A DNA stretch of 64,000 nucleotides. Source: Flavobacterium sp. N502536 (GTDB lineage: Bacteria; Bacteroidota; Bacteroidia; Flavobacteriales; Flavobacteriaceae). The notes beneath the pieces were generated by a model, which did not search any database, had not been told where the DNA came from, and saw only the letters and a program-made list of their open reading frames with translations. Within the stretch, counting starts at the first letter, position 1, and each line of letters opens with the position of its first letter. A program made the translations under genes and the position numbers. The stretch spans positions 2,914,001-2,978,000 of the forward strand of contig NZ_CP110011.1 in the NCBI RefSeq assembly GCF_025947345.1, written 5' to 3'. Below are positions 1,767 to 57,339 of the stretch, in pieces.

Positions 1767-1774
1767 TACTTTTG
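1767..1774 (+). promoter_or_regulatory. Promoter -7 element for rpsU
   Basis: TACTTTTG matches the Bacteroidetes primary-sigma core TAnnTTTG and sits 30 bp before the rpsU start. No clear TTTG -33 element is visible at the expected spacing, so only the -7 box is annotated. Confidence 0.6.
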
Positions 1775-1787
1775 CAGCCTTAACGAG

Positions 1788-1795
1788 AGGAGGTG
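1788..1795 (+). promoter_or_regulatory. Strong Shine-Dalgarno of rpsU
   Basis: AGGAGGTG is an eight-base perfect complement of the canonical 16S anti-Shine-Dalgarno and ends 8 nt before the ATG at 1804. No other gene in the window has an SD of this strength, as expected for a lineage in which the anti-SD is normally occluded on the ribosome. It fixes the start codon of rpsU and points to dedicated translational control. Confidence 0.85.
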
Positions 1796-1803
1796 TCAAT
1801 ATT

Positions 1804-1998
1804 ATGTTAATTATACCAATTAAAGACGGAGAAAATATCGATAGAGCATTAAAGCGCTATAAAAGAAAATTTGATAAAACAGGAACTGTTCGTCAATTAA
1901 GAGCACGTACTGCTTTTATTAAGCCTTCTGTAATCAAAAGAGCTCAAATTCAAAAAGCGGCTTACATCCAAAACTTGAGAGACAGTTTAGAGAGTTAG
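1804..1998 (+). CDS. rpsU: 30S ribosomal protein bS21
   Basis: The 64-residue basic protein shows the bS21 pattern: IPIKDGENIDRALKRYKRKF at the N-terminus followed by a long basic helix with repeated Arg/Lys. In Flavobacterium ribosomes bS21 helps cover the 3' end of 16S rRNA together with bS18 and bS6, which hides the anti-Shine-Dalgarno. The gene has its own -7 box (1767-1774), an exceptional SD (1788-1795) and a strong terminator (2021-2068), so it is a monocistronic unit. The SD suggests that ribosomes lacking bS21 would preferentially translate this mRNA, giving autoregulation; that mechanism is known in F. johnsoniae and is inferred here. Confidence 0.97.
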   Translation: MLIIPIKDGENIDRALKRYKRKFDKTGTVRQLRARTAFIKPSVIKRAQIQKAAYIQNLRDSLES

Positions 1999-17266: not shown

Positions 17267-17510
17267 ATGGAAAAAAATGAAAATTTTGACAGCTTTTACC
17301 GTTGTTAGAAAACAGATGGGTATAAATTTAGAAAATGAGATACAGTTGGAGATCCAAACAAACAGAAAGTGTAGTTCAACGGATTTATTTTTGTTTTCGT
17401 CGACAAAATTTTTTGTTTTGCATGGATTGTCCTAGATTGCCACCTCCTAAATAAAAGATTATTAATTATTGGAATATATTAACTAATTAAGGTTCGATTA
17501 ATTCAAATTA
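17267..17510. other. Intergenic region without a supported gene
   Basis: This AT-rich stretch between two terminators contains only a 60-codon open frame starting inside the upstream terminator. That frame has no recognisable protein features, and I see no promoter or RNA structure. Confidence 0.6.
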
Positions 17511-57177: not shown

Positions 57178-57242
57178 TTTGTGGTATTCAATTATTTATT
57201 TAGTAGATTTTTTTAGGAGCTAATCCCGCTATCCGTTTCAAT

Positions 57243-57272
57243 CTTTTGTGTCCGCCGCGGCGGACACAAAAG
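57243..57272. repeat. Perfect 30-bp GC-rich palindrome
   Basis: The left half CTTTTGTGTCCGCCG is exactly mirrored by CGGCGGACACAAAAG with no loop. Its core is far more GC-rich than its surroundings. The flanks AATCCCGCTATCCG and ATCGGGGCTAGATT are partly complementary too. It lies between kdpC and the porin. Confidence 0.92.
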
Positions 57273-57339
57273 GATTTCCACTACTATCGGGGCTAGATTA
57301 TTCGGGGCAAAAAGGGGGATTATATCGATTTTATATCCT

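Follow-up and report, generated by a model that had tools for sequence, protein, structure and literature searches.

An extended Shine-Dalgarno sequence before rpsU in a Flavobacterium genome, as in the autoregulated rpsU of F. johnsoniae, and bS21 genes lacking such a sequence in relatives and phages

The closest described system is the autoregulation of rpsU, the gene of ribosomal protein bS21, in Flavobacterium johnsoniae, and our account of it follows the available parts of McNutt et al. 2023 (PMC9976891). Cryo-EM of the F. johnsoniae ribosome found the 16S tail held by bS21, bS18 and bS6, with Tyr54 of bS21 stacked on A1534, and rpsU alone carries an exceptional Shine-Dalgarno (SD) sequence. 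When bS21 is mutated or depleted, rpsU'-gfp output rises at least 3- to 4-fold. Ribosomes without bS21 or its C-terminal region initiate on rpsU about 10 times faster at 20 C, while complete ribosomes initiate on it slowly, and a strong SD added to tuf makes its output somewhat lower in the wild type. The native rpsU leader is 25 nt long. The Bacteroidota were also surveyed for the rpsU SD, pairing below -13 kcal/mol being the published criterion for an extended one. The first-pass annotation of the DNA studied here had cited this work as establishing both the occlusion of the anti-SD by the three proteins and the strong rpsU SD, and the paper bears it out. Two further systems are described in the same source. 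Flavobacteriales of the Chryseobacterium type have an altered anti-SD (UCUCA) and a fitting rpsU SD (Jha et al. 2021, as described in PMC9976891), and Francisella, named there for its bS21 paralogues, has more than one bS21 per genome.

The window, which is the whole stretch of 64,000 nucleotides that we analysed, covers positions 2914001-2978000 of a single-contig genome of 5,052,333 bases. Its rpsU lies on the forward strand at 1804-1998, from the ATG at 1804 to the end of the stop codon at 1998, and encodes 64 amino acids. The product was recognised as bS21 by both PF01165 (62.3 bits, cut-off 27) and TIGR00030 (54.5 bits, cut-off 28.95). Counted from the alignment, it shares 61 of its 64 residues with F. 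johnsoniae bS21 (chain 7jil_z), and residue 54 is the Tyr of the published structure. One bS21 gene is present in the genome, unlike Francisella with its paralogues.

A promoter-like element, TACTTTTG, at 1767-1774 (+) matches TAnnTTTG, given as the -7 promoter consensus of flavobacteria in the available part of PMC3587595, and an element of this type is also present upstream of rpsU in relatives. If the leader has the length of that in F. johnsoniae, the mRNA would probably begin with 25 nt at 1779-1803 (+). Downstream of rpsU there is a terminator-like hairpin followed by a T run (2021-2068, the hairpin itself at 2021-2061, + strand); its folding energy is -17.5 kcal/mol (z -7.97), and none of 200 shuffles was equally stable. 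A separate terminator scan, which permits loops of 3-8 only, missed this hairpin, and a sigma-70-type promoter scan gave 5 sites versus 3.0 expected with a model that does not fit the promoters of this lineage. From the promoter-like element, the likely short leader and the strong terminator hairpin, rpsU is probably a transcription unit of its own and transcribed alone. The second gene downstream of rpsU, ahead of the tRNA genes and tuf, encodes an HPF/YfiA ribosome hibernation factor (TIGR00741, 3007-3366). Elsewhere in the window, at 57218-57298 (-), there is a Flavo-1 RNA (RF01705, 77.8 bits), which we take to be a conserved small RNA of this lineage with no known role.

Many ribosomal protein operons are controlled through a structure in the leader RNA that is bound by the protein itself. 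On this general knowledge, bS21 could likewise control rpsU by binding a leader structure. The leader, though, probably measures just 25 nt, and its predicted fold, taken with the first rpsU codons, is no more stable than those of shuffled sequences (z +1.45). Nor did any Rfam family match near rpsU, and we reject leader-structure control as hardly credible here.

The leader does hold a pairing site for the 16S rRNA. The SD core, AGGAGGTG, is located at 1788-1795 (+) and is separated from the ATG by a spacer of 8 nt (1796-1803). The first-pass annotation had described an eight-base SD 8 nt before the rpsU ATG; its position was right, while its length has to be corrected from eight pairs to 12, as the extended SD, GAGAGGAGGUGU, at 1785-1796 (+) pairs with the 16S tail over 12 uninterrupted positions, one of them a G.U. 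The tail used is the genome's own, GGAACACCUCCUUUCU, ending in GGAACACCTCCTTTCT; it is identical, with no mismatch, in all seven 16S copies found, and its anti-SD is the standard CCUCC, intact. By ViennaRNA the rpsU SD pairs with this tail at -21.5 kcal/mol, far below the published -13 kcal/mol, although that value was obtained with free_scan (PMC9976891) and the two energies are not strictly comparable.

It was also claimed at first pass that almost no other gene of the window has a comparable SD, and our survey of the window upholds this. Among 63,976 stretches of 22 nt sampled at every second base of both strands, the rpsU site is the strongest, at -21.5 versus -17.8 kcal/mol for the runner-up. 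Across the 41 other window ORFs of at least 100 aa, the best pairing at a start is -9.5 (ViennaRNA), and the mean pairing just 5' of their starts is weaker than in a mock region (-2.3 versus -3.7). This weakness agrees with the depletion of SDs at starts already published for the lineage, in the available parts of PMC9976891. With our own stacking table, applied to 47 candidate window genes at their first ATG, rpsU reaches -24.2 and the next best gene -10.9. The genes of the two proteins that hold the tail together with bS21, rpsF (bS6) and rpsR (bS18), lie at another locus (L174) and have no SD (-0.9 each; rplI, -4.8 kcal/mol). In the published system rpsU should carry the strongest SD among the ribosomal protein genes and usually the sole exceptional one of a genome, and the rpsU SD does exceed the pairing of these three genes.

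Scoring of SD strength at all starts of the genome had been proposed as a check. At the starts in the window rpsU alone is exceptional, and for the genome as a whole the check was made for the exact 8-mer, as AGGAGGTG followed by ATG after 3-12 nt. This pattern gave 22 matches at 20 distinct sites, and the reversed-pattern control gave 16 matches. Seventeen of the sites fall within open frames of at least 229 codons, two stand before short ORFs (12 and 14 codons), and the last is rpsU, the only one at a plausible gene start. As a plain word with up to one mismatch, AGGAGGTG is overrepresented in the window (41 copies versus 23.6 expected), the copies not being placed just 5' of starts. A second exact AGGAGGTG occurs at 17441-17448 (-), with no listed gene start just downstream.

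In most bacteria a strong SD leads to higher expression, and so the rpsU SD could be read as a strong constitutive ribosome-binding site of a highly expressed gene, with no feedback. The window itself speaks against this, as tuf (3943) and secE (5281), both very highly expressed, have no SD (-4.4 at each start with our stacking table). In F. johnsoniae, moreover, complete ribosomes are slow on rpsU, and the SD-bearing tuf loses rather than gains output in the wild type (PMC9976891, available parts). We therefore reject a constitutive site and leave it a small chance.

We then consider the relatives. In the phylum, bS21 was found in 197 of the 198 genomes searched. One rpsU was read in each of 45 genomes of the class, consisting of the 30 best-scoring and 15 chosen from the next ranks. 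It was found that 30 of the 45 pair with the window's tail at -12.9 kcal/mol or better, and a strong rpsU SD is present in all 10 genomes of the genus and in 18 of the 19 of the family. Two others, G012 and G095, have a changed 16S tail, ACATCTCATTTTA, together with a changed SD that fits it. Their SD pairs at -14.9 with their own tail and at -4.8 with the window's tail, and the window's SD on their tail gives -10.1. This is the covariation described for the Chryseobacterium type, while the window's genome keeps CCUCC. The remaining 13, mostly outside the family, show no strong rpsU SD against the window's tail; since the 16S tail was recovered in only 23 of the 44 genomes searched, some of these may be misjudged as SD-less. 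Both the prevalence and the covariation are consistent with the published survey, as far as the available parts of PMC9976891 describe it. We found nothing in favour of a site that matches by chance, or of one that is inherited but has no function, and the data speak against both: it is the best of the 63,976 window stretches, it is kept in every genome of the genus that was read, and it covaries with the 16S tail in G012 and G095. We reject chance, and give this explanation practically no weight.

We return to autoregulation by way of ribosomes that lack bS21, which the first-pass annotation had proposed for this locus. In a complete 30S subunit, bS21, bS18 and bS6 would keep the 16S tail in its pocket, and ordinary mRNAs would initiate without SD pairing. 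In a 30S subunit without bS21 the tail would be free to pair with the 12-nt rpsU SD, and this pairing would speed up rpsU translation until bS21 is replenished. The proposal is supported by the intact anti-SD, the 12-pair SD, the SD-less bS6 and bS18 genes, Tyr54 and the scarcity of SDs. The SD and the tail that fits it, its standing as a unique site in the tests made, the conservation of the SD and its covariation with the tail among relatives, and Tyr54 are all observed here; the mechanism very probably operates in the window's species as well, judging from homology to F. johnsoniae and the near-identity of the two bS21 proteins. By this analogy we are highly confident that the extended SD of rpsU serves in this species to sense whether ribosomes are complete. 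What weighs against the proposal is that 13 of the 45 genomes show no strong rpsU SD with the window's tail, and that in a few genomes of the family an SD-less bS21 gene is the only one detected. When compared to the F. johnsoniae system, the locus shares an extended SD far below -13 kcal/mol, the scarcity of SDs elsewhere, Tyr54, a short leader (here a predicted one) and a near-identical bS21. The difference is that F. johnsoniae was studied by experiment, while the present organism is another species, seen through its sequence. Autoregulation of rpsU is not new, being already published for F. johnsoniae (PMC9976891), and since the window departs nowhere from that account, the proposal correctly recognises, in another species, a mechanism that is already known. 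The published rule very probably carries over to one more species, adding to a clear case of specialised ribosomes in bacteria, in which a ribosome missing one protein favours the mRNA of that same protein.

Outside the window, the search for bS21 led to a second type of bS21 gene. We searched 149 genomes of Flavobacteriaceae, almost every one from a different genus, with a bS21 protein of this second type; 144 of them match, and 55 have at least two bS21 genes, as in Francisella. In 43 genomes there is a gene whose identity to the query is 69% or higher. Its product has the segment KRKHRN(V/I)(K/Q), compared with, for example, KRKFDKTG in rpsU products. All 43 of these genes were read, and they pair with the standard tail at -5.5 kcal/mol or weaker; this tail was confirmed in G103 and G118 and assumed for the other second-type genomes. 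A more distant gene in G218 gives -6.8, and one in G118, from a separate search, gives -9.8, the strongest seen. A further bS21 gene exists in 40 of the 43 genomes, and in the 20 where it was read it always has an SD, at -17.2 to -17.6. In G261, which is 80% complete, only the SD-less gene was found. In the nearly complete Flavobacteriaceae genomes G286 (L154) and G329 (L155) the sole bS21 gene detected is SD-less, and so is the only one detected in G053 (L102); from these three genomes, the rpsU feedback seems dispensable in some members of the family.

The place of the second-type gene is also conserved. Of 45 loci, which hold 44 distinct genes, 38 have a DUF2797 gene downstream on the opposite strand. 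In 22 the bS21 gene is preceded on its own strand, at a distance of 13 to 215 nt, by a sigma factor gene, and tblastn adds the single gene of L115/L156. This sigma factor is RpoD-like, with Pfam sigma-70 regions 1.2, 2, 3 and 4, and scores below the NCBIfam RpoD cut-offs. All nine tested genomes with the sigma gene beside bS21 have at least two RpoD-like matches (partial pieces in G331). Among eight genomes without the adjoining sigma gene, six have one such match, as does the window's genome, and two have two. For Dokdonia, a second RpoD whose promoter is not known was described, and the available part of that paper (PMC3587595) makes no mention of rpsU or S21. A scan of named genomes covered the best 80 of at least 560 relatives, which form a related set rather than a random sample and include Winogradskyella, Algibacter, Psychroserpens, Tamlana, Hyunsoonleella, Gelidibacter and others. 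All of these best 80 lack an SD (strongest -7.7), and the sigma gene is upstream in 59 (gap 22-335 nt), absent in 20 and could not be judged in one that was too short. The second type, with no SD and a conserved place, comprises L104-L133, L154, L155, L157-L167 and L175-L254. We also considered that a second bS21 without Tyr54 might leave the anti-SD free. This is unsupported, as Tyr54 is present in 21 of 21 aligned proteins and an aromatic residue stands at 54 in all of the best 80 of at least 560. Bacteroidota are not in the list of lineages with extra bS21 genes in the available parts of McNutt et al. (PMC9976891), and we found no report of an SD-less second bS21 in Flavobacteriaceae in the part of the open-access literature searched. 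This second type of bS21 gene is a lead outside the window and possibly new.

Phages carry bS21 genes as well. According to the available parts of Chen et al. 2022 (PMC9723584), phage bS21 has an aromatic residue and diverges near residues 21-28, and it was proposed to replace the host's protein; those parts contain no discussion of the SD of the phage gene. We found 24 viral bS21 loci and counted 20 (L061-L080), many of them nearly identical. Three others (L081-L083) were discarded because the match had no nearby start codon, and L060 is not counted among the phages. The latter is a 72-kb contig of a viral collection with a bS21 of the Chryseobacterium type and a matching altered SD, TGAGATGT, and it may be host DNA. 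None of the 20 counted loci has an SD before the bS21 gene (-0.8 to 0), the leaders being AT-rich, and Tyr54 is present in all seven phage proteins aligned. A FastTree tree built from 63 bS21 proteins had too little support to place those of the phages. The idea that phage genes carry SDs and exploit bS21-free ribosomes was also examined and is unsupported: for 97 ORFs from 9 phage loci the pairing is -2.0 at starts versus -3.7 in the mock region, with three ORFs at -9 or below in each.

An SD-less bS21 gene stands outside the rpsU feedback. Since Tyr54 is kept in these proteins, the anti-SD pocket should close around them, and such a protein, if incorporated and closing the pocket, would silence the host's rpsU. 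The changed segment at residues 23-28 may shift the choice of mRNAs, and a second sigma factor together with an SD-less bS21 could switch transcription and translation jointly. That the SD-free genes, both the second ones of many marine Flavobacteriaceae and those of phages of such hosts, override the rpsU feedback, with the second sigma factor and bS21 acting as such a joint switch, is a tentative suggestion that we consider rather unlikely. If an SD-less bS21 does enter ribosomes, it would offer a natural test of whether the exchange of bS21 reprograms translation, and also of whether cells or phages are able to turn the feedback off. The family-wide set of SD-less bS21 genes, although a by-product of this analysis, could matter more than the rpsU finding itself.
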